Part shown: positions 3,376-27,582 of the stretch, piece after piece
Numbering within the stretch: the first letter of the stretch is position 1
How the letters are laid out: each line of letters opens with the position of its first letter
Virus record (IMG/VR): IMGVR_UViG_3300020182_000149
Coordinates: 1-27,799 of that record
Length of the DNA stretch: 27,799 bases
Origin: a virus
Direction: 5' to 3' (one strand)
Notes under the pieces: generated by a model
What the model was told of the DNA's origin: nothing
The model's input: the letters and a program-made list of their open reading frames with translations, nothing else
Database searches by the model: none
Position numbers and translations under genes: made by a program

Positions 3376-4822
3376 AATTGGGTTGTTTAGGTGTTTTAAA
3401 GACTATATTCTTTTCAATAATTCCTGTCAGCACATCAGCAGCGTCATCGTGAGCATTTGCTCTGAAGTTCTTTTTAAAGCCTGTTAGATGCTTCCAAAAC
3501 ATCCCCCAACGGTTATGCCAATCCTTCGGAAATAGAATGTGCCTTTGAACTTGTGCTGAATTGGAAACAATCCTTGCCTCTTTGTTTAATGACTGATGGA
3601 AAGAATTTATCGCAGCTTTGGTATTCTTTTGTACGTTAATTGCAAAGTATCTTCCTCCGTTGTTACTTTCAAAATCTGCTTGTTTAGTTCCGTTATCATT
3701 TAACATCTTTGGCAGCATTACCTCAGTAGCTTCCATTGAATCCATTGTGTAAAGTATGTCGGTTATGTAGATGTCATCGCCAACTCTGTCGTAACAAATT
3801 GAGCAAAGGTAATCGTTACCTGCGTCTGCCGTATCTGTGTAGTTTCCTTTCTTAGTTACGTTCTCAGGAATATGGTCATAGGTTCGCCATTCGCCTGAGT
3901 AAAGCAATCCCTCTTTTGAAGTTGGATTACCTTGATGTAAGCATTCAAACTTATTAGGATCAATTCTTCGCTCCTCAGTTAGCTTATCAATAGAATGTCT
4001 GTTTTCCCATAGTGCTTCGCCAACTGCTCGTTCATCAATAGACGTCTTTTGGCTTGTTTTAATGGCTTCAAAGTTTAGCTTTACCCATTCGTTAGGGTTG
4101 AATGAATCTAAGTCATCTAAGCAAGTAATTACGTTTACCTTTTCGTTCTCCTCAATCCTTCCTATTACATCTTCCTCGTGCCACCTCGTGAACACAATTA
4201 GCTGCTGACTATTATTGTGAAGTCTTGTTTTAACTACCGATGTGTACCAATCCCAAGCTGATTCCCTAATAACAGGAGAAGAACCTTCCGCATAGTCTTT
4301 GTACAAGTCATCCATTATAACGCAATCCAAAGTGATTGAAGTTAATGCTCCACCTCTACCAACTGCTTTCAACATTCCTTTGTGTCCTACTATCTCAAAC
4401 TCTTCTGAGTTTCTTAAGAATGAACTTGCAACTGTTACAACATTACTTGAGTTTAATTTGGTGTCAGGAAATAAAGCAGCGTATTCAGGAGTATCAATTA
4501 TCCTTTGATTGTCTCTGTTAAATTTCCTTGCTATGGTTGCGTTGTATGAAGTAATTGCAAGTCTTAAATTAGGGTTTAGACCAAACATAAAAGAAGGCAA
4601 CCGCCTTGTGCTACCTTCTGATTTTCCGTGTTGCGGAGGCATTGAAACCATCAGCTTCTTAATCTTACCCTTTGCGAACCTATCTAAAATTTCGTAATAA
4701 ACTTTGTGGTATGGCTGCCAATCAAATGATGTTGTTGTGTAGCTTGTGTAATCCTTTAAGTTGGTTCTTGCTTTTCTTCTTGCTATCTCCTCCTCAATTA
4801 TTACTTCTTCAAGTTTAGCCAT
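3275..4822 (-). CDS. terL: Terminase large subunit
   Basis: This 515-aa packaging motor drives DNA into the prohead by ATP hydrolysis and cuts the concatemer. ATPase domain: Walker A variant SMPPQHGKS at about 60-68, Walker B VIMDD at about 168-172, and a coupling-type segment FTRWHEED at about 211-218. RNase H-like nuclease domain: TDTADAG at about 329-335 (Asp330/Asp333), DFESNNGG near Glu385, and HDDAADV at about 458-464. All expected acidic residues are present and the length is typical. The ATG at 4822 overlaps the TerS stop by 8 bases. The last 33 codons overlap the next gene, and the stop lies in a run of seven T. A circularly permuted genome fits a headful mechanism, but that is inference. 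Confidence 0.95.
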   Translation of the reverse strand: MAKLEEVIIEEEIARRKARTNLKDYTSYTTTSFDWQPYHKVYYEILDRFAKGKIKKLMVSMPPQHGKSEGSTRRLPSFMFGLNPNLRLAITSYNATIARKFNRDNQRIIDTPEYAALFPDTKLNSSNVVTVASSFLRNSEEFEIVGHKGMLKAVGRGGALTSITLDCVIMDDLYKDYAEGSSPVIRESAWDWYTSVVKTRLHNNSQQLIVFTRWHEEDVIGRIEENEKVNVITCLDDLDSFNPNEWVKLNFEAIKTSQKTSIDERAVGEALWENRHSIDKLTEERRIDPNKFECLHQGNPTSKEGLLYSGEWRTYDHIPENVTKKGNYTDTADAGNDYLCSICYDRVGDDIYITDILYTMDSMEATEVMLPKMLNDNGTKQADFESNNGGRYFAINVQKNTKAAINSFHQSLNKEARIVSNSAQVQRHILFPKDWHNRWGMFWKHLTGFKKNFRANAHDDAADVLTGIIEKNIVFKTPKQPNYENTHTKFIKGDSTGFNAATWNSERNRAGSDFF

Positions 4823-5195
4823 CAGTTACTCTTTTAGCCTGTTTTAAACGTGCCTCAAGTTCTTCGTCAGTTAAGTTGGATAGGTCAAGGTTCTTGTTAG
4901 TATTTTCAGTTTCCATTCTTTCAATATAACCACGTTTCTTCCCTTTGGTCTTTAGGTAGAAAATGGTTGACGTTGGAACATTATCTTTTATCTGCTGATG
5001 TAATTGCGTTTCTGCGAAATCCAAAGCTACGTTTTCAATATCCTTTACCTGCTTTGCAAATTCTTCGTCATCTTTTAACCATCCGTAGAAAGTAGTTCTA
5101 CCAACTCCAACCTTTTTACAAGCAGTTGTGACGATTCCAAGCGATTGCTCCAACGCTTCAATTATTGCCTTTTTATGTTGTGCGGTTTTGTTCAT
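4815..5195 (-). CDS. terS: Terminase small subunit
   Basis: This 126-aa protein has an N-terminal helix-turn-helix: GIVTTACKKVGVGRTTFYGW at about 20-39, followed by a charged helical region. It matches small terminase subunits with the layout HTH, oligomerisation helices and charged C-terminal tail that contacts TerL. It would recognise phage DNA and start packaging. It lies directly upstream of terL and overlaps it by 8 bases, the classic arrangement. The ATG at 5195 lies two bases after the stop of the small membrane protein gene, so the three are probably one transcript. Confidence 0.85.
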   Translation of the reverse strand: MNKTAQHKKAIIEALEQSLGIVTTACKKVGVGRTTFYGWLKDDEEFAKQVKDIENVALDFAETQLHQQIKDNVPTSTIFYLKTKGKKRGYIERMETENTNKNLDLSNLTDEELEARLKQAKRVTDG

Positions 5196-5699: not shown

Positions 5700-6236
5700 C
5701 TATTTTAAACTATTTATCTTTGTTTTATACTCTTTAATTTTTTCCTTTATTTCAGGTATGAGCATTTTATTACTCGGTTGATAACCTTCAAGCCATTCTA
5801 CTTTCTCAACTCCTATGCGGTTGATCAACTCTTTCCGGTATTCAATCAAGTTTCCGTGCAAGTAAGTATTGCAGGTAGCACATTGCCGCCAAACATTTAG
5901 TTCATTAAATCTTAGTTCAGGACAACTGCCAACAGAACGATAGTGACCTGCGTGGAATTGCTTTTCGTTATTCTTGCCACAGGATATACAAGGAAGGTCT
6001 TTATCTCTTAACCTTATGTAACTATTAAATACTGTCTGAAATAGCTTCAGGTAATCTCTGTGAGTTAATAAGGCTTCCTTTGCCTTCTTCTTTTCCTTCC
6101 GTTCCTGCTTCGCTTTCTTTTCCCTTTCTTTTTTTACTAATTCCTTTACTCCTAAATTATGACAAAGGTCTTTATCACAATACTTCCAATTAAACCACTT
6201 CGGTTCAAAGTTATCTTTGCAGTTCTTACATCTCAT
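5700..6236 (-). CDS. ninG: NinG/Rap-like recombination endonuclease
   Basis: This 178-aa protein has two zinc-binding modules. The N-terminal one has Cys3, Cys6, Cys20 and Cys25. After a very lysine/glutamate-rich helix (about 31-58) comes an HNH-like core: CISC at 83-86, HAGH at 95-98, and CATC at 119-122 with following NTYLHGN. This pattern matches NinG (lambda Rap), a structure-specific nuclease that helps resolve recombination intermediates. It overlaps the preceding 69-aa gene by 11 bases and lies next to a phosphoesterase, consistent with a DNA recombination and repair cluster. No residue appears to be missing. The symbol is used for the family. Confidence 0.85.
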   Translation of the reverse strand: MRCKNCKDNFEPKWFNWKYCDKDLCHNLGVKELVKKEREKKAKQERKEKKKAKEALLTHRDYLKLFQTVFNSYIRLRDKDLPCISCGKNNEKQFHAGHYRSVGSCPELRFNELNVWRQCATCNTYLHGNLIEYRKELINRIGVEKVEWLEGYQPSNKMLIPEIKEKIKEYKTKINSLK

Positions 6237-6435
6237 TCTTGAACCTGTCTAAATCTGCTTTGAAATTATCAAGCCTTGTCTTTTCGTGAGCATAAAATTG
6301 TTCAAGATATGCAACTGCATCTTCTTTATCTTTTACTGTTACAATTACAGGGCTTTCAAAATACTTAAAGTAAATTTCCTTTCTTGTTTTTAACTTGTCC
6401 AAATAGTGTATCCAAGTGTCTATATTATCTTTCAT
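6226..6435 (-). CDS. Uncharacterised 69-aa charged protein
   Basis: This small helical protein starts MKDNIDTWIHYLDKLKTR and ends in a lysine/aspartate-rich helix. It overlaps the phosphoesterase stop by 4 bases (ATGA) and the NinG start by 11 bases, so it is embedded in a coupled recombination cluster. No family recognised. Confidence 0.6.
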   Translation of the reverse strand: MKDNIDTWIHYLDKLKTRKEIYFKYFESPVIVTVKDKEDAVAYLEQFYAHEKTRLDNFKADLDRFKNEM

Positions 6436-7649
6436 TTTATGAATTTTGGTTTTAAATATACGTCAAGATCTTTGTAGCTTTCTAAAAAGAAACCTCTTCT
6501 GCCTTTCTTAAAATTGTTTTGTACCCATTGGGAAGATGGACTTAAAGCAGGATAATTAAAATAATAGAAATCATCTGAACTGCACATATCAAATAATGCT
6601 TGATGCGAATCTCCCTTGCAGAAAATAACCAAATCCGCAGTTTTGTAAATGTTATTGTTTTTGCAGTATTGATCTATCTTTTCTATTGAGTCAGGTTTGA
6701 GTTGTGGTTTGAAGCCAAACTTTAAACTCTTATCATCTTTTCCGTGAGAAATCACAAAGCAAATATTACCTATAAAATAGTGATTGATAAATTTCCTGTG
6801 GTTCGTAACCTTTACGTTGTCATATTTCAATTCAAGAATCTGCTTCATTGTCTTGTTAACAAAGTATCCGAATGCTCCTGAATGATTGTCATTACAAATG
6901 TTGTTAACTTCTACCCTGCTATAATGAGCAAGTAATGGTTCAATAAGTTTAATCTTAAATTCTACGGCAGTATCAAACGCTTCTTCGTTGGTCATATTCT
7001 GCGGAAGTTCGTGTCCTCCTCTTGTGGTCTTGCCATCAAACCCATCCATTAAATCTCCGTAATCGTCTACAACTATGAAGTTAGATTTCCTTTCTTTTAT
7101 GGCAGCTTCAGCTATTCGTGTGCAGTCTTTCAGAACTTCCTCCTTGTTCCATTTGACTGCATACATTGAGTTGTCATACTTGTTAGTTTCCATTCCTATG
7201 TGAACGTCAGAAATAACAAGCCTGTCAAAGTCTGCTGCATTGTCTATTATTGGAACAACCAACCTGTCTAATCTTTTGATGTGCTTTTTTACGATGCCTT
7301 CAAAGTCAAAATCTTTTACTTCTTCTTTCTCCTGCTTTGCTGCATATTGTATCCATTGCTGACCTGTGGTCTTGGAAGTAGATATTTTAATAACCTCAAA
7401 ATTCTCAGGAATATCTATGGCTTCGGATTGTAGCTTTTCAAGAGATGAAATTACGTTGCCATTTTTGTCAAGTTTATTTTGAGTATTGACAAATTTTCGA
7501 GGATTTGGTTGCATTCTTTTCCTTAGAATATCTTCATAAACTTCAGAGTCAATGGTGTATTTCGCCTGCCTTTCCCCTTTTATCTGTTTATTTAAACTTA
7601 AACCTAATTGCTTTGCTTCTGAATCATATAACCTTTTCCTTACTTTCAT
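6432..7649 (-). CDS. Calcineurin-like metallophosphoesterase (SbcD/MRE11-type fold)
   Basis: This 405-aa protein contains the five metal-binding motifs of the metallophosphoesterase superfamily: ISDVHIG (Asp148, His150), VVDDYGDLMDGF (Asp199), a degenerate GNHD motif NICNDNHSGAF (about 250-260, Asn255/His256), VISHGKDD (His302) and KGDSHQAL (Asp347, His349). The first 110 residues form a separate domain beginning KRLYDSEAKQLGLSLNK, possibly a helix-turn-helix. The fold includes nucleases such as SbcD, but no SbcC-like ATPase is present. I chose the ATG at 7649, since the longer frame would begin at a TTG lying within the promoter-like element. Next to NinG, a DNA end-processing role is plausible but unproven. 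Confidence 0.8.
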   Translation of the reverse strand: MKVRKRLYDSEAKQLGLSLNKQIKGERQAKYTIDSEVYEDILRKRMQPNPRKFVNTQNKLDKNGNVISSLEKLQSEAIDIPENFEVIKISTSKTTGQQWIQYAAKQEKEEVKDFDFEGIVKKHIKRLDRLVVPIIDNAADFDRLVISDVHIGMETNKYDNSMYAVKWNKEEVLKDCTRIAEAAIKERKSNFIVVDDYGDLMDGFDGKTTRGGHELPQNMTNEEAFDTAVEFKIKLIEPLLAHYSRVEVNNICNDNHSGAFGYFVNKTMKQILELKYDNVKVTNHRKFINHYFIGNICFVISHGKDDKSLKFGFKPQLKPDSIEKIDQYCKNNNIYKTADLVIFCKGDSHQALFDMCSSDDFYYFNYPALSPSSQWVQNNFKKGRRGFFLESYKDLDVYLKPKFIK

Positions 7650-8175: not shown

Positions 8176-8274
8176 TTATGATTTTTTAAAAAGTGAAATG
8201 TTAATATTATCGTTACTATTAATTTGTAAGGAAAAAACTGCACTAAAAACAGATTTTAAACCTAAAGCTACTGC
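8176..8274. repeat. 99-bp direct repeat, copy A
   Basis: This stretch matches 8787-8885 with four mismatches over 99 bases and in the same orientation. Together they bound a 611-bp unit. Copy A lies directly before the gene at 7989-8174. Confidence 0.9.
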
Positions 8275-8786: not shown

Positions 8787-8885
8787 TTATGATTTTTTAA
8801 AAAGTAAAATGTTAACATTATCGTTACTATTAATTTGTACTGAAAAAACTGCACTAAAAACAGATTTTAAACCTAAAGCTACTGC
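8787..8885. repeat. 99-bp direct repeat, copy B
   Basis: This is the intact-context partner of 8176-8274. It encodes the C-terminus of the 86-aa gene at 8787-9047. Confidence 0.9.
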
Positions 8886-15506: not shown

Positions 15507-16847
15507 TTATATTATAAAATAAATTGTCGTTGCCACAGGTGTTAAAGCATCGTACTCCGCCTGAGTTACTGTTGTTAAAGCATTTGTTGTGTAGGTAGTT
15601 CCTACGTTCTTCTGAATTGATGTTGTTCCTAAAGCTGCACCACTTGTAACTGTGGCAACTGCAACTGAATTAATTGTTCCTACTGTTGTTGCTCCTGTAT
15701 TGTCAATCGTTACATCTCCACTCATTGCAACAGATGCTGATTGATTGGAAGCGTTTCCAAGAAACATCTTTGCAGAGTCTAAGTTAGGTGTTGCATTTGC
15801 TCTACCTGCCCCTCCTACTTTTATAATCCCTTCACTTGCGTGGCTTCGGATAACCTTTCCGATGTTTTGAATTGCCGCTGCTTCTCCTGTTGGTGCAGTT
15901 GCAGTTAATCCTCCTGCGGTAATATCAACGTAAAGTATATCTCCCTCGCTAAATGCTGAAGTGTCAACTCCTGTTAAATTTCCAAAGGTTACAACCTCAC
16001 AGGCTGCGTTGTTATTTGCGTCTGCATATACTAAACCAAAAGCAGGTCTTGCAGTTGCATCATCAGCATCTGCTAAATCAACCAAAGTTTCATTGCCGCT
16101 AACTCCTGTAATTGATACAACCTTCCCTTTTAACAATGTTGAACCACTATCATTCTTCGCTTCAAATCTTACTGCACCATTTAAATCTCCCACAAAATCA
16201 GGAGCAGTAACTGAACCTGTAAATGTCGCACCTGTTAAGTCTGCTTTACCTGCTAATGCTGAAGTATTAGAAGCTATGTTTGTAACATTTGTTGCAATGC
16301 CTGAAGTATTGGTTGCAATGTTGGTTGTATTTGTTGAAATATTAGAAAGGTTCGTTGCAATACCACTTGTATTGGTAGCAATATCTGTCGTATTCGTTGA
16401 TATGTTAGATACATTCGTTGCTATTCCTGAAGTGTTAGTTGCTATATCTGTTGTGTTTGTAGCAATTCCTGAAGTATTGGTAGCAATATCAGCTACATTG
16501 GTTGCAATGTTGGTTGTATTTGTTGAAATATTTGTAACATTCGTTGCAATACCACTTGTGTTGGTTGCTATATTTGTTGTGTTCGTTCCAATACTTGCAA
16601 GGTTGGCAGCAACTCCGCTTGTGTTGGTAGCGATGTTTGTTACATTCGTAGCAATATCTGTTACATTAGTAGCTATTCCGCTTGTATTTGTGGCAACATC
16701 AGTTTGCGTTGAAGTCAATTCTGCTGCATTATTATTTACAACAGTCTTGATTTCATTCGCATTCGTGAATGTCAATTTTTTATTCTCAGGCAAAGCATTC
16801 GCTTGTCCTAAAATTTTATCGTCAAAGGTTATATTAGTAGCTGCCAT
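15507..16847 (-). CDS. Tail fibre shaft with 21 seven-residue repeats
   Basis: This 446-aa protein has an N-terminal region 1-50, then 21 imperfect heptads from about residue 51 to 197 with patterns such as IATNTSG, IATNVTN and ISTNTTD, consistent with a trimeric coiled coil. A central ALAGKADLTGATFTGSV region and a glycine/threonine-rich beta C-terminal part follow, as in phage side fibres. It shares one base with the connector gene upstream. It probably forms the shaft that presents the adhesin. Its open antisense strand is a consequence of the repeats and is not a gene. Confidence 0.8.
   Translation of the reverse strand: MAATNITFDDKILGQANALPENKKLTFTNANEIKTVVNNNAAELTSTQTDVATNTSGIATNVTDIATNVTNIATNTSGVAANLASIGTNTTNIATNTSGIATNVTNISTNTTNIATNVADIATNTSGIATNTTDIATNTSGIATNVSNISTNTTDIATNTSGIATNLSNISTNTTNIATNTSGIATNVTNIASNTSALAGKADLTGATFTGSVTAPDFVGDLNGAVRFEAKNDSGSTLLKGKVVSITGVSGNETLVDLADADDATARPAFGLVYADANNNAACEVVTFGNLTGVDTSAFSEGDILYVDITAGGLTATAPTGEAAAIQNIGKVIRSHASEGIIKVGGAGRANATPNLDSAKMFLGNASNQSASVAMSGDVTIDNTGATTVGTINSVAVATVTSGAALGTTSIQKNVGTTYTTNALTTVTQAEYDALTPVATTIYFII
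16257..16697 (-). repeat. 21-bp tandem heptad-encoding repeats
   Basis: About 21 tandem units of 21 bases encode the heptad repeats of the fibre. Units differ at many third positions, so they are not recent perfect copies. The hydrophobic position is mostly I/V and the rest Asn/Thr/Ser. Confidence 0.85.
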
Positions 16848-21093: not shown

Positions 21094-21117
21094 GGGGAGC
21101 GAACTTAATCACTCCCC
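21094..21117 (-). terminator. Hairpin between major capsid and tail tube genes
   Basis: GGGGAG (21094-21099) pairs perfectly with CTCCCC (21112-21117) around a 12-base loop. On the minus strand the hairpin is followed by TTCATTACT rather than a pure U-run, so it may be a partial terminator or an mRNA-stability hairpin for the capsid message. Confidence 0.45.
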
Positions 21118-21128
21118 AAAAATATAAA

Positions 21129-22067: not shown

Positions 22068-23219
22068 TTAGTAATTTAATCTGTTTTGTAAATAATTTGC
22101 AACTGAACTTCCGCTTTCGTTGCTGAGTTTAGTGATTGATTTTGGTGCTTCATTTGACACCTTTGATAATTTTTCTGTGTTCAAGTTTGTTGCTTTTGCA
22201 AGACTTGAAAGTGTTTCTTTTACTGAAACTAACTCAGATTTCATTTCTTCGTTTTCCTTCTTCATAGATTCAGCAGCTTCAACTTGTGCTGCAACTGCGT
22301 CAACTAAAGTATCAATAAGAACGCTTACATCTTCTTTAGCTACTTCCTTCACTTCTTCAACGACTTCTTCTTCCATCATTTCTTCCTTCTCCTTGTAGAC
22401 CATTTCTTCTTCGTCTTCCTTTTTCAAGTCAGCAGCTTCAGTCATAGATACTAAAACACCAGCCTCAACTGTGTAAGTTTTACCATCAATATCATACGAA
22501 TCATTTGCTGGAATAGTCATAGCTTCATCGGTGTATACCTTGCTACCTTCCGTAAAAGATTCAGCGTATATCATTACTCCTTCACCAACATCCATTGATG
22601 CCAATTCAGTTTTTTTGCTCGGAATCATTTCACCGAGTTTCGTTAGAATAGCATCTAACTTCACGTTTGTGTTACTCATTTCTGATTTATTTAGTTGTGT
22701 TAATTCGTGGTTCATATCAGCTTCTACCGATATACCTTTATAAGTTCCGTCTTTAATTTTTGCCCAAACCTCATCGTTTGAAATGTATGTTCCCTGCATC
22801 CAAGTTTTCGCAGGTACTTTAAACCCTAACTCGGTAGCTTTATCATTTAATGGATTTTCAACAATCCAATTTTCAACTACATCTACACCTTCCAACTTTT
22901 GGTTTTCATCGTGTTCGCTATTCCATTCGCCTAATGTTACTTTTTTAAGCATATAGTCTTTGGCTATATCTTCAATAGTTTCTCCGCTAAAATAAATTTC
23001 GTATGGGTCACCTGCGTCAGATACTCGTGGAATAACTTTGTCAGGAATTAGAACAGGCGAATAAATCATTCGCTTTTCGTCTTGAACTGAAAGCTGAATA
23101 GGCTTGTCTTCTTTAGATAAAAAGATAAAATCAGTTTCTATTGCAGGACTTTCGACCAATGCAATTCTAAAAACAGAACTGTCTAACCAATCTTTTTTCT
23201 TTAGTTCAAATCGTTTCAT
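22068..23219 (-). CDS. Prohead serine protease (S78/XkdF-like) with C-terminal scaffold
   Basis: I chose the ATG at 23219; a longer reading frame starts at 23258 but its extra residues (QIQLVLLCNFAL) are read-through of the promoter region. The protease resembles the XkdF/S78_2 family: VTLGEWNSEHDENQ (His103), NWIVENP (about 117-123) and GTYKGISVEA (Ser164). A beta-like SYDIDGKTYTVEAG region follows (about 240-250), then a very acidic coiled coil (EEEMVYKEKEEMMEEE), and a short C-terminal tail. The protease cleaves scaffold and capsid during prohead maturation, and the coiled coil is the likely scaffold. It immediately precedes the capsid gene. Confidence 0.8.
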   Translation of the reverse strand: MKRFELKKKDWLDSSVFRIALVESPAIETDFIFLSKEDKPIQLSVQDEKRMIYSPVLIPDKVIPRVSDAGDPYEIYFSGETIEDIAKDYMLKKVTLGEWNSEHDENQKLEGVDVVENWIVENPLNDKATELGFKVPAKTWMQGTYISNDEVWAKIKDGTYKGISVEADMNHELTQLNKSEMSNTNVKLDAILTKLGEMIPSKKTELASMDVGEGVMIYAESFTEGSKVYTDEAMTIPANDSYDIDGKTYTVEAGVLVSMTEAADLKKEDEEEMVYKEKEEMMEEEVVEEVKEVAKEDVSVLIDTLVDAVAAQVEAAESMKKENEEMKSELVSVKETLSSLAKATNLNTEKLSKVSNEAPKSITKLSNESGSSVANYLQNRLNY

Positions 23220-23224
23220 TAAAG

Positions 23225-23232
23225 CAAAATTA
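23225..23232 (-). promoter_or_regulatory. -7 element TAATTTTG for the protease-capsid operon
   Basis: On the minus strand TAATTTTG ends 5 bases before the ATG at 23219, giving a possible leaderless start. No TTG was found at 17-23 bases upstream. It faces away from the plus-strand promoter 53 bases away. Confidence 0.4.
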
Positions 23233-23265
23233 CATAACAATACAAGTTGAATTTGCATCGTTTCG

Positions 23266-23293
23266 TTGCTTTGCTTTTTCTTTCTTACTTTTG
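23266..23293 (+). promoter_or_regulatory. Bacteroidota-type promoter for the plus-strand HTH gene
   Basis: TTG (23266-23268), a 17-base spacer, then TACTTTTG (23286-23293), fitting the -33/-7 consensus. The ATG follows 4 bases later, so the message would be nearly or fully leaderless. It lies in the divergent gap between the protease gene and this gene. Confidence 0.6.
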
Positions 23294-23297
23294 CTGA

Positions 23298-23486
23298 ATG
23301 GCAAAACCGATAAAATACTTTTTAGATTTGGAAATACTTCGCAAGGTTGAAGTCTGCGAGATGATAGGATGCTCTCTAAGAACAATTGACAACTACGTTA
23401 AAAAGGGTTTACCTGTCCACAAACCGACAAACGCAGCACCTTATTACTTAGCTTCTGAAGTTTACGAATGGATTCAGCGTAATTAA
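23298..23486 (+). CDS. HTH_17/Nu1-like DNA-binding protein (only plus-strand gene)
   Basis: This 62-aa protein has a helix-turn-helix of the excisionase/MerR-like or Nu1-like type: LRKVEVCEMIGCSLRTIDNY at about 14-33, then a KKGLPVHKP wing and YLASEVYEWIQRN. It is the only convincing gene on the plus strand. Its stop (23484-23486) touches the stop of the convergent tape-measure gene (23487) with no gap, and its start diverges from the protease gene. A DNA-binding regulator of the late operons, or a packaging-type protein, are both plausible; excisionase is less so because no integrase is seen. Confidence 0.7.
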   Translation: MAKPIKYFLDLEILRKVEVCEMIGCSLRTIDNYVKKGLPVHKPTNAAPYYLASEVYEWIQRN

Positions 23487-25325
23487 TTACTTTCCAATCT
23501 TTACAAGGTCATCAACCCTGTTGTCTAAGGATGCAGAATCTTTGATGTCCTGCTGAACTACTACCGCCCTAACTGAACCAAATCCATCTCTTCCTCCTAC
23601 ACCTTGATTCTGTGCGTTAAAGTTTGGTATTCGTGGAGTTTCTGTTGATGGTCTTGTACCTCCACCACCTGCTCCTCCACCTGAAACAGTTGGTGTTTGT
23701 GTAGAACTTGTTTTAGTGCTTAGTATTTTTTTCACTTGTAACATTCCGAAAACACCTGTTGCAACTGCTTGTGCTATTGCGTATCCGGGAATCGCTGCTC
23801 CGGGACTTGTTTGTGCTGCCCTTAGAGTTCCTACTATTGCTGCATAAGTATCAAAGGTTGCCTGTGCTGCGGCAATACCTTTCTGTGCTTTCTCATTCTT
23901 TCCTGCTAACTCTTGCAAGATGTTAAACCCTGAACTAACTAAGCCAACTTTAATATCAAACAATGTTTTTGCATCAGCCTTTTCTTTATCAAAAGCAGCT
24001 TGGTCAGCAGCATCTTTTTTCGCTTTTGCGTCTGCATCTATTGCCGTTAGTTTATTTTGATATTCTTGTTCTATTGCTGCTAATGCTTCTTTTTTCGCTT
24101 GTTCATCTGTTATTGCTAACTCAGCATCAAGCAACCTTTGTTCACGTTCTTGTGCTGCTTCATCTTTTTGCCTTTCAAATTCAGATTTTCCTACTAATGA
24201 TAATTCATCAACAATTTGTTTCTGCTCCCTTAATAAAGAATTTCTGTTGGTTAACTGCTCCGCTTCAAATCCTGCCACTTGTGCAAGTGTAGCAGCATAT
24301 TCATTCTCCGCATTTTTTAATGCAACTTTTGCTTCTTGATTATTCTTATCTAATTTAAGTTGACCTTTTGCTGCATCAATAGAAACCTGTGCTAATTTTA
24401 ACTGCTCCTCCTGTTGCTTTTTTAATACAACTGCTAAATCTTCATTGGCTTTAATTCGTTCTTTAAATGTTAACCTGTCATCATCTCTAATTTGTCTTAA
24501 CCTCTCCGCTTGTAAATCATATTTTTCAATTAATCCTCTGATCCCTGCCTCTGCTAATTCTGCTGATTTTTTTAGTTCAGTATTTGCTTTAACAGTTTCG
24601 TAGGTTGCTTCAATGCTTATATCTTTAACCCCCTTAATAACCCCTTTAGAAACTTTACCAACTTCTTCTATTGCTCCTGCAAAATTTGTTACAACGCTTT
24701 TTCCTGCATCAACCGCATCAAATGCTACCTCTGCAATATTGTTTTTAGTTTCTAAAATTGCAAGATTTAATTCTTTTATTGTTTCAGGGTCTTTATCGCC
24801 AAGAAAACTCTTTTCCCAAGCTAATTGTGCTTCTTGCAAACCTAAACTTAAAGCGTAAAATGATAGTTTTATAGGTGTCAATGCAATAGTCATTAACCCT
24901 TTTGCAACCTTAGTTAAGTTATCAAACCCACCTTCTGCTTTACTAACTTCGCTAACAACATCGGAAACAACATTTGCAACCTGTGTACCTACTGCCGAAA
25001 TAGTGCCTAACACATTTGTGAAGACATCCATTACCTTTTGGTTGGATTTGAAAGCAGCAACTAATAATCCAACAGTTCCAACTAATAAACCAATACCTGC
25101 TGCTTTAATTGCACCACCAAGTGCTTTAAATCCTTTTCCTGCTTTTCCTGTTGCTTTAGCAGTCATTTCCCCTGCCTTCTTTCCTGCTTGTCCTGAAGCC
25201 TTTTGATTTGCAGTTGCTTCTTTTTGTGTGTCAACAAATTCTTCTGACTTCTTGACAAGTTTACCCATTGAACTTAACCCTTCGGTTGTATCAACTACTG
25301 TCTTAACTTCTAATATTTCTGCCAT
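23487..25325 (-). CDS. Tail tape measure protein
   Basis: This 612-aa protein is largely helical and low in cysteine, with a hydrophobic stretch around 70-92 (GAIKAAGIGLLVGTVGLLVA), a long coiled coil region (about 245-450, with DAAQEREQRLLDAELA), a second hydrophobic stretch at about 500-535 (GAAIPGYAIAQAVATGVFGM), and a Gly-rich linker before a beta tail. This is typical of tape measures that set tail length and are ejected at infection. The length predicts a tail of the order of 90 nm by the usual rule of thumb. It follows the hub protein by one base and ends at the convergent HTH gene. Confidence 0.85.
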   Translation of the reverse strand: MAEILEVKTVVDTTEGLSSMGKLVKKSEEFVDTQKEATANQKASGQAGKKAGEMTAKATGKAGKGFKALGGAIKAAGIGLLVGTVGLLVAAFKSNQKVMDVFTNVLGTISAVGTQVANVVSDVVSEVSKAEGGFDNLTKVAKGLMTIALTPIKLSFYALSLGLQEAQLAWEKSFLGDKDPETIKELNLAILETKNNIAEVAFDAVDAGKSVVTNFAGAIEEVGKVSKGVIKGVKDISIEATYETVKANTELKKSAELAEAGIRGLIEKYDLQAERLRQIRDDDRLTFKERIKANEDLAVVLKKQQEEQLKLAQVSIDAAKGQLKLDKNNQEAKVALKNAENEYAATLAQVAGFEAEQLTNRNSLLREQKQIVDELSLVGKSEFERQKDEAAQEREQRLLDAELAITDEQAKKEALAAIEQEYQNKLTAIDADAKAKKDAADQAAFDKEKADAKTLFDIKVGLVSSGFNILQELAGKNEKAQKGIAAAQATFDTYAAIVGTLRAAQTSPGAAIPGYAIAQAVATGVFGMLQVKKILSTKTSSTQTPTVSGGGAGGGGTRPSTETPRIPNFNAQNQGVGGRDGFGSVRAVVVQQDIKDSASLDNRVDDLVKIGK

Positions 25326-25326
25326 C

Positions 25327-27582
25327 TTATGTGATTAAAATTTGTCCTCTTTGTGTTGCTATATCTAAGTTGCTATCGTAAAAGAATCCGTATGCAATAG
25401 CACTATCTTCAATGCTTGGAGTTTCCCCATTCCCATCGCCTACGCTTACATTGTCAGAACTACGTTTCCATTGAACTATTGAGTTTATTACGTCATAAGG
25501 ATAATACGTTGCTATGTCGCTTGGATAAACTTTAAACCTCTTCATAAAGGTAGCAGTTGCAGGTTGATCACTTGTTAAACTTATCCCTTCCAACTTAACC
25601 AATCTGAGCAAGGTGTTCTTATAATAAAACTTTTCGTTAAACTTTAAGCCATCAATTTGGTTTCTGTTTAGCTTGATGTTCATCTTTATTTCTCTGCTTT
25701 GCTCAGAATAGGTTTCTTCCAAATACTTTTTCCAATATCTTTCATACAGATTTTGACTTGGATAACCTGTGCTTGACCAATATGAAAGTGACTGACCAAA
25801 GTTTTGGTCTGTTGTGTTATAACCGCCTGCCAAACCTTCCCAATTCCCTATAAATGGAATGCTTAAATAACGTGTTTCGGATGCACTAAACAAAGAGCCC
25901 AATATTATAGGTTGGGTCATTGTTGTTTCACTTGTCTGTAATAAAGTAGCCTTGCCTTTTATGGTCTTAAATTCATCGTCATATATTTTAGGGATAGCAG
26001 CTTCCGATGAATCTATTTTTACGCTGGGAATAACTGCAAATGGGACTTCAATCGATAACTCATTCTTTGCAAATTCAGTTCCTGTGTTCTCAATAAACTT
26101 CTCTCCAAAACTTTCGTCAGTTAATTCTTTATATTTCTTTGAATAAAAATCGTCATTCTCTTTGTATCCCAAACGAATAGACTTAGCGCCTTGAATGCTG
26201 AAAGGTTTTATCTGAACATCAACTGCATCTTCAATAATATCATCTAAAATTATTACCTCGTCGTTATCTTCAATCCAATCATTAAAAGGTGTCATCTCAT
26301 AAGTTCCATCTGAGTTGGCAATTATTTGCCCATTACATTGGAGTGCTACTGTTCGGAATATATCCCAAGCAGTAACGTCAGGACAATTAGCAGGAACATC
26401 TATATTTGATGTAGGCGATATTGAAGGAGCTTGAACCACTGCAAATTTAAAACCTTGAAATAAAGAAGTTTGTTGAGGAGAGCCTGTTGTTTTTGATTCT
26501 ATACTTATCCTTTGATTTAATAATAAACTTTTAGGAATCTGAACATTAATGTTAAATGATTGAAAACCACCTGCAAAAAGAGTAGTTGGTAAAGATAGTA
26601 TTAGCTGTCTTGTTGCCGTTACAGATTCGTATAAAAACAGTTCAATTACATAAGATGTCGTAGACGTGCCCGTGTTGCTTAAAAATACTGAACCCTCTAC
26701 TTGAGCAACATAATTACCATCAATAGGTGCTACATATTCATCATTCGCCAAATCAAAATTTGCGGTATTTGCAATATCATAAACTGATTTACTTTGAAAT
26801 AGTAATTTATTTATTACTCCGTTTGTATATTGCTGTTGGAGTGTTGATATAAAAGTTCCAGTATTGGTAAATTCACTATCATCTAATTTAGGGACTCTTT
26901 GCTTATCATTATGTAAAAGGATAGCTTGCTTTAATAATCTATCTGCACCGTTAACCGTTATATTAAATGGCATTAACTCCAAACACTTTTCTATTGTTAT
27001 AGCCGCCTTAAAATCTGTTTCAAATAAAGTTTCTGTTGTTAATGACCTTTTAGTCAAAGAAGCTATTGCGCCTGTAAATCTTTGCCCGAAATCAACCAAT
27101 GGAAAAACATACCCGTTAGTATCTCGGTATCCTGTTGGGTCATCAAAACATTGCTTTATCTCTGTATAATTATAAGCAATACTTTCCCCTTCCGTAAGTT
27201 CCGCCATCGTAATATTTGACAAAGTAGCTTTCAGGTCTGTTTCACTACCTTGAAATATCATCTCTACTTCTTTGGAATCTCCTTTAGTTGTGTTTACTAC
27301 AAAGAAACTTCCAACAAACCTTTCAAATCCATCTACTAAAATTCTTCCTTTTATTGATTTGTTCAGGTTAACCTTTGCTGATTGTGAAGGGTCAGTAACG
27401 TCACCTATCGCATCTAATAACCCACCTATAAGCGGAAGCCTAAATGACTGCCTTGTAATCGTTCCCTGACTTCCTAAGTTGTCAATAGAAGCAACTACCT
27501 TATTAATTTGTATGCTTTCATTTTCAAAGGTTCTGCAAACGTGAGAAACCCCATCAATATCTAAAATTATAGTTACTACCAT
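25327..27582 (-). CDS. Tail hub / distal tail-tip protein, 751 aa
   Basis: This 751-aa beta-rich protein begins MVVTIILDIDGVSHVCRTFE and lacks signal or membrane segments. It has an N-terminal domain resembling tail-hub proteins (FRLPLIGGLLDAIGDVTDP and KGRILVDGFERFVGSFFV), a middle region with GTSTTSYVIELFLYES (jelly-roll-like) and a C-terminal part with a helical segment ERYWKKYLEETYSEQSREI. It is upstream of the tape measure by one base and follows the 411-aa gene; such proteins form the distal ring or baseplate hub. The identification is by context and low-level pattern. Its first 155 residues recur in the allele at 1-465. Confidence 0.65.
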   Translation of the reverse strand: MVVTIILDIDGVSHVCRTFENESIQINKVVASIDNLGSQGTITRQSFRLPLIGGLLDAIGDVTDPSQSAKVNLNKSIKGRILVDGFERFVGSFFVVNTTKGDSKEVEMIFQGSETDLKATLSNITMAELTEGESIAYNYTEIKQCFDDPTGYRDTNGYVFPLVDFGQRFTGAIASLTKRSLTTETLFETDFKAAITIEKCLELMPFNITVNGADRLLKQAILLHNDKQRVPKLDDSEFTNTGTFISTLQQQYTNGVINKLLFQSKSVYDIANTANFDLANDEYVAPIDGNYVAQVEGSVFLSNTGTSTTSYVIELFLYESVTATRQLILSLPTTLFAGGFQSFNINVQIPKSLLLNQRISIESKTTGSPQQTSLFQGFKFAVVQAPSISPTSNIDVPANCPDVTAWDIFRTVALQCNGQIIANSDGTYEMTPFNDWIEDNDEVIILDDIIEDAVDVQIKPFSIQGAKSIRLGYKENDDFYSKKYKELTDESFGEKFIENTGTEFAKNELSIEVPFAVIPSVKIDSSEAAIPKIYDDEFKTIKGKATLLQTSETTMTQPIILGSLFSASETRYLSIPFIGNWEGLAGGYNTTDQNFGQSLSYWSSTGYPSQNLYERYWKKYLEETYSEQSREIKMNIKLNRNQIDGLKFNEKFYYKNTLLRLVKLEGISLTSDQPATATFMKRFKVYPSDIATYYPYDVINSIVQWKRSSDNVSVGDGNGETPSIEDSAIAYGFFYDSNLDIATQRGQILIT

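Follow-up and report, generated by a model that had tools for sequence, protein, structure and literature searches.

What does a small helix-turn-helix (HTH) gene do when it stands alone on the plus strand of a phage genome, between the genes for the tail and those for the head? The question is raised by the window, that is, the whole stretch of 27,799 bases analysed here, which carries a siphovirus-like gene set (TerS/TerL, portal, XkdF-like protease and tape measure). The ends of the record are near-identical (1-300 versus 27118-27417, 94% over 300 bases), which makes it probable that the contig is circular, with variation between strains where the ends meet, and that the record goes once around a circularly permuted genome of about 27.1 kb. 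With the exception of the HTH gene, all genes of the window lie on the minus strand; the remaining long plus-strand open reading frames (ORFs) are shadows of minus-strand genes, and a related Vicingaceae contig is likewise one-stranded except for its HTH gene.

A backward gene kept in place

The genes on which the argument turns are the following.

4815-5195: TerS candidate adjoining TerL (phrog_4044, 8e-8)
22068-23219, minus strand: XkdF-like head maturation protease, with which the head block begins (PF14550, 1e-16)
23298-23486, plus strand: gene of a 62-aa winged HTH (wHTH) protein of the HTH_17 / Nu1-BldC-Xis fold (ORF, PF12728, PHROG, AF2 model, Foldseek, purifying selection)
23487-25325, minus strand: tape-measure protein, whose gene ends the tail block and converges on the HTH gene (phrog_9483 tape measure, 2e-8)

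The HTH gene has 62 codons, from an ATG at 23298 to a TAA at 23484-23486, and lies between the tape-measure and protease genes. Its stop abuts that of the tape measure (23487-23489, minus strand), and a 78-bp intergenic gap (23220-23297) separates its ATG from that of the protease (23217-23219). The sequence-only reading of this locus, which had described a lone plus-strand gene between the two blocks with abutting stops, is exact to the base on both counts, and the gene is the sole credible one on its strand.

That reading had also proposed to see whether related phages keep the gene at the same place. They do: it is present in all 12 relatives that cover the site, at 97 to 39% identity and three levels of divergence. 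These comprise ten IMG/VR contigs (92-97% or 67%), one at 39% (L027/L031) and the Vicingaceae contig, which has another close copy, whereas L013, L023-L026, L032 and L034 are uninformative, as each of them either starts within the protease or has next to nothing upstream of it. In each of the 12 the HTH gene is upstream of the protease and divergent from it, and in every relative with sequence on its far side it points towards the tape measure. Pairwise dN/dS is about 0.04-0.15 in most pairs with usable dS, indicating purifying selection. A DNA-level search of the phage collection gave no match; at the protein level the protease matched only Nonlabens phages P12024S/L, and the HTH protein only, and weakly, large Aeromonas phages. 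The Vicingaceae contig, a complete-looking relative of 29.6 kb (L038/L043/L044, JAOKCF010000017.1), stands as a separate contig among those assembled for Vicingaceae bacterium AH-578-N02, which may point to a host of the phage clade; a literature search found no paper on Vicingaceae phages.

Several features elsewhere in the window were observed in passing. A 99-bp direct repeat among small genes (8176-8274 and 8787-8885, 96% identity, 611 bp apart) suggests that the end of a gene was duplicated recently. A repeat with a 21-bp period, or 7-residue unit, occupies 16246-16686 inside a 446-aa probable tail or fibre protein, whose version in the Vicingaceae contig is shorter (411 aa). Directly after the capsid stop, between capsid and next gene, lies a minus-strand hairpin GGGGAG...CTCCCC (21094-21117) that is kept in six aligned sequences with two pairs changed on both sides, and which may be a processing site or partial terminator setting the capsid level. 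Ahead of the gene that follows the capsid, a TATTTTTG box (21117-21124) was not counted as a promoter, since it is not conserved in L037.

A single winged helix-turn-helix domain

The AF2 model of the HTH protein (pLDDT 89.6) shows an H-H-H-E-H arrangement with an HTH and a β-wing, and on this model the protein is predicted to be a single wHTH domain of the HTH_17 / Nu1-BldC-Xis fold without a dimerisation tail. HTH_17 (PF12728) scores 19.7 bits in the window protein, below the gathering score of 27, and 27.6 bits in the L031 homologue, above it. Matches among PHROG families (phrog_668, 1.3e-6; phrog_57, 4.2e-5; also phrog_66 and phrog_4691) are to HTH proteins, terminase small subunits and excisionases. 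Foldseek returns 7lw0, 6ama, 6amk, 8dgl and 4j2n, that is, lambda-type TerS domains, BldC, RdfS and Xis; the matches to Nu1, BldC and RdfS have a probability of 1.00 and TM values of 0.6-0.68, but E-values of 0.005 or weaker. Neither the sequence nor the fold matches name a function.

In the PDB, the best matches are Nu1-type terminase small subunits, by sequence (E 0.006-0.02) as well as by fold, and the fact that these are lambda-type TerS proteins, not transcription factors, counts against reading the protein as a regulator. A role in packaging, as a Nu1-like small terminase or an accessory that marks the packaging site, would agree with the nearest PDB sequences and folds (7lw0, matched with a TM of 0.68, 1j9i and 6hn7) and with phrog_57. 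We regard such a role as improbable. The separate TerS candidate beside TerL disfavours it, the HTH gene lies far from the terminase genes rather than next to TerL, and its single-domain product of 62 residues does not have the long TerL-contacting tail of a TerS.

The same fold is found in the RdfS and Xis excisionases (HTH_17), which also regulate transcription (PMC11963761). Together with phrog_66 and phrog_4691, this likeness could point to the excisionase (recombination directionality factor) of a temperate phage. Recombinases of the tyrosine and serine types, and matches to PF00589 and PF00239, were looked for in the window and in three related records, and none was found; as an excisionase would need this partner, the reading was rejected and is given very little credence.

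BldC and RdfS regulate transcription as lone wHTH proteins that form oligomers on DNA (PMC5859096, PMC11963761). BldC of Streptomyces resembles the HTH protein in being a lone MerR-like wHTH of 68 aa without a dimerisation domain (Foldseek 6ama, 6amk), but identity is about 22%, and inspection of the gap by eye brought to notice no regular direct repeats of 9-10 bp of the BldC type.

Divergent promoter boxes close to both starts

Both starts that border the gap are preceded by promoter-like elements in the sequence.

23225-23232, minus strand: -7 promoter box TAATTTTG of the protease gene, whose ATG follows after 5 nt; also seen in relatives
23266-23268, plus strand: possible -33 element TTG, spacer 17
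23286-23293, plus strand: -7 promoter box TACTTTTG of the HTH gene, whose ATG follows after 4 nt; relatives keep TATTTTTG, TATCTTTG or TATATTTG

The window thus holds the TTG-N17 promoter that had been described, with the HTH start 4 bases past the -7 box, as well as the minus-strand box 5 bases before the protease ATG within the 78-bp gap. The Bacteroidetes -7 box reads TAnnTTTG and is spaced 4-5 nt from the transcript start in Flavobacterium johnsoniae (PMC6847099). TAHHTTTG has a frequency of 5.2e-4 per strand-base, the probability of a box ending 3-7 nt before a given start is about 0.003, and that of boxes before both divergent starts by chance is about 7e-6, the latter being a post hoc estimate. 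On the protease side, TAATTTTG, TAATTTTA or TAACTTTG is found 4-5 nt before the ATG in all relatives, across three lineages. On the HTH side the box lies 4 nt from the start in the close group only, L007-L010 having a leader of about 30 nt and L031 one of about 15 nt; the TTG-N17 element is not conserved, short-gap relatives carrying TTTG at N20 instead. The boxes of the divergent pair are therefore conserved in sequence and place, and the promoters are predicted from them. A conserved HTH gene with divergent promoters is highly likely, and the observation itself, namely the gene, the boxes and their positions, is near certain to hold.

With the 4-5 nt spacing of F. johnsoniae, both messages would start at the A of the ATG. 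The proposal that both are potentially leaderless gains from the protease box layout, which recurs in three lineages, and is weakened on the HTH side, where the layout is confined to the close group; leaderless transcription of the divergent messages is a prediction from box spacing. For comparison, 87% of predicted leaders in F. johnsoniae are longer than 10 nt (PMC6847099), and 5' UTRs shorter than 10 nt make up only 3.7% in B. thetaiotaomicron (PMC7366714).

Elsewhere on the minus strand, five TATATTTG boxes (5699, 7669, 9077, 11866 and 13072) stand 4-22 nt before genes of the non-structural block. Early (TATATTTG) and late (TAATTTTG/TACTTTTG) promoters may differ in two middle bases.

A slowly changing gap with a candidate operator

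Across relatives the gap measures 68-88 bp. It changes more slowly than fourfold sites of the protease (0.06 versus 0.37 for L001/L005; 0.19 versus 0.33 for the window and L001) in the usable pairs, the exception being the nearly identical L005/L006; the Vicingaceae protease pair was left out. Three further features lie within it.

23221-23277, minus strand: extended imperfect hairpin, with outer arms AAAGCAAA/TTTGCTTT around the dyad (z -3.06)
23236-23262: operator-like dyad AACAATACAA-N7-TTGCATCGTT, 8/10 in the window, centred at about -30 of the protease start
23274-23283: 10-bp segment, about one helical turn, aligned in the window and the Vicingaceae contig and absent in other relatives

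The dyad, given for close relatives as AACAATACAA-N7-TTGTATTGTT, is perfect (10/10) in L005/L006. Taken alone as DNA, it is significant in L005/L006 only (P 0.007) and not above chance in the window (P 0.51), and no counterpart was found in the gaps of L007-L010 or L031. Being at chance level in the window and absent from these two more distant lineages, it is taken as a candidate operator, and the reading of it as a proven one was downgraded.

As minus-strand RNA, the gap folds with unusual stability in the window (z -3.06, with 0/200 shuffles as good) and in L005/L006 (z about -3.9), and the fold is similar in close relatives. The hairpin is absent in the L007 group and in L031, and 0/16 pairs show a compensatory change in close relatives, for which reason it is not claimed as a conserved RNA element. 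Rfam matches in the region all fall far short of the gathering scores.

A probable insertion into an ancestral operon

Two relatives outside the inner clade (at least 58% protease identity) have a different layout. In L053 (protease 38% identical) and L054 (32%), tape measure, protease, capsid and a tail-tube-like gene are collinear; no HTH gene is present, and only 32-38 nt separate tape measure from protease. Homology to the window is given by the tape measure and the upstream tail gene in L053, where the order is tail gene, tape measure, protease, capsid, and by the protease and the tail-tube-like gene in L054. Since the tape measure runs into the protease in both, the HTH gene is most likely an insertion: there is a good probability that it entered a collinear tape-measure-to-protease operon in the ancestor of the inner clade and split it, a polarity that we infer from gene order. 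In Nonlabens phage P12024S, the protease homologue (28.7%) starts a late block divergent from small genes, and no HTH gene neighbours it.

Absence from the syntenic L053/L054 and an own -7 box are traits of a moron; an own terminator directly after the HTH gene was not found in the window. The island around the gene varies, with an RNA polymerase α-CTD gene added in L031, a 57-aa ORF in L007 and a 64-aa minus-strand ORF in L003. The insertion-like history and these varying contents would also suit a moron whose protein acts elsewhere (host takeover, superinfection or nucleoid-like coating) and whose position is a tolerated insertion site, the more so as many roles are known for wHTH proteins of the same fold (PMC11963761). 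However, throughout the inner clade the HTH gene is invariant in presence, place and orientation while its neighbours vary, and the gap is conserved above fourfold sites; we consider action elsewhere unlikely.

In L003/L014, the tail block ends ahead of the HTH gene in an intrinsic terminator on the minus strand, so that the head block there needs its own promoter. No terminator between the tail and head blocks was found in the window. Read-through could thus make the protease promoter dispensable, which weighs against the explanation that we favour.

An RNA polymerase α-CTD gene next door in one relative

In L031 (IMGVR_UViG_3300008221_000026), a gene of 110 aa at 6207-6536 follows the HTH gene directly on the same strand. 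Its product is an RNA polymerase α-CTD (PF03118, 1.7e-8, above cut-off; PDB alpha subunits, 3e-5). No other relative searched contains the gene, and in the phage collection two unannotated gut-phage records match it weakly (E 9e-5 and 0.04). The neighbour points to a role of the HTH protein in transcription, and its occurrence in one phage only counts against the regulator reading.

The adjoining α-CTD gene also speaks for a second reading. The HTH protein might be an activator of the protease-capsid promoter that helps the host polymerase at a site near -30 to -40: no TTTG or TTG partner at -33 was found for the protease -7 box, and the dyad is centred at about -30 of that start. Yet the -33 motif is weak in Flavobacterium generally (PMC6847099), so that its absence says little, and the candidate site lies across the core promoter, as would be expected of a repressor site. 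Activation is ranked second, and seems rather unlikely.

The reading ranked first is autorepression that also affects the head block. The gene of a small wHTH regulator would have been inserted backwards, in the manner of a moron, between tape measure and protease of a single late operon, and the insertion would have created a divergent promoter pair, one promoter for the regulator and one restarting transcription for the protease-capsid block. The wHTH protein would most likely bind the 68-88 bp gap as a dimer or head-to-tail oligomer, and, once bound, would repress its own promoter and set the timing or level of the protease-capsid promoter. We give a probability of about 50% to the HTH protein being an autorepressor that acts on the gap with an effect on the head block; that it is a regulator acting on the gap, of either sign, is probable. 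Both gap binding and the sign of control are what we infer for the protein. The original idea of a regulator sitting between two promoters that it could control therefore stands as far as a conserved wHTH gene between divergent Bacteroidetes-type promoters is concerned, the protein itself being a candidate regulator. The full scheme, in which a lone wHTH protein, paired in one lineage with an α-CTD, re-times head versus tail block through back-to-back leaderless promoters, is doubtful.

Relation to known systems and significance

The sequence-only reading knew of no regulator at such a place in a phage structural module. This is too strong, as the immI region of P22 (mnt, arc) lies inside the late operon, between genes 16 and 9; the late message mostly does not express this region, which differs from phage to phage and has been proposed to influence the level of tailspike (PMC8022706, PMC2629481). 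The likeness to immI, or the 'ant moron' (mnt, arc, ant), lies in the presence of regulators inside a late structural operon. P22 is temperate and its Mnt and Arc, which are ribbon-helix-helix proteins, control an antirepressor, whereas the present protein is a wHTH, no integrase was detected, and the gene is directly divergent from the head block.

Regulators within a structural operon are thus already known. What sets the present case apart is a combination: a wHTH gene that runs backwards between the tail and head genes of a marine Bacteroidetes phage, near-leaderless divergent promoters, and, in one relative, an α-CTD partner; no paper describing the arrangement was found in the literature searched, which covered few subscription journals. 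Control of late genes in Bacteroidetes phages is poorly described, and the α-CTD gene of L031 gives a tangible starting point for studying how phages control the sigma-ABfr polymerase. If confirmed, the arrangement would illustrate how the insertion of a regulator can divide a structural operon and provide the head block with a promoter of its own, and it would add a natural example of late messages without leaders to a phylum in which such messages are rare.
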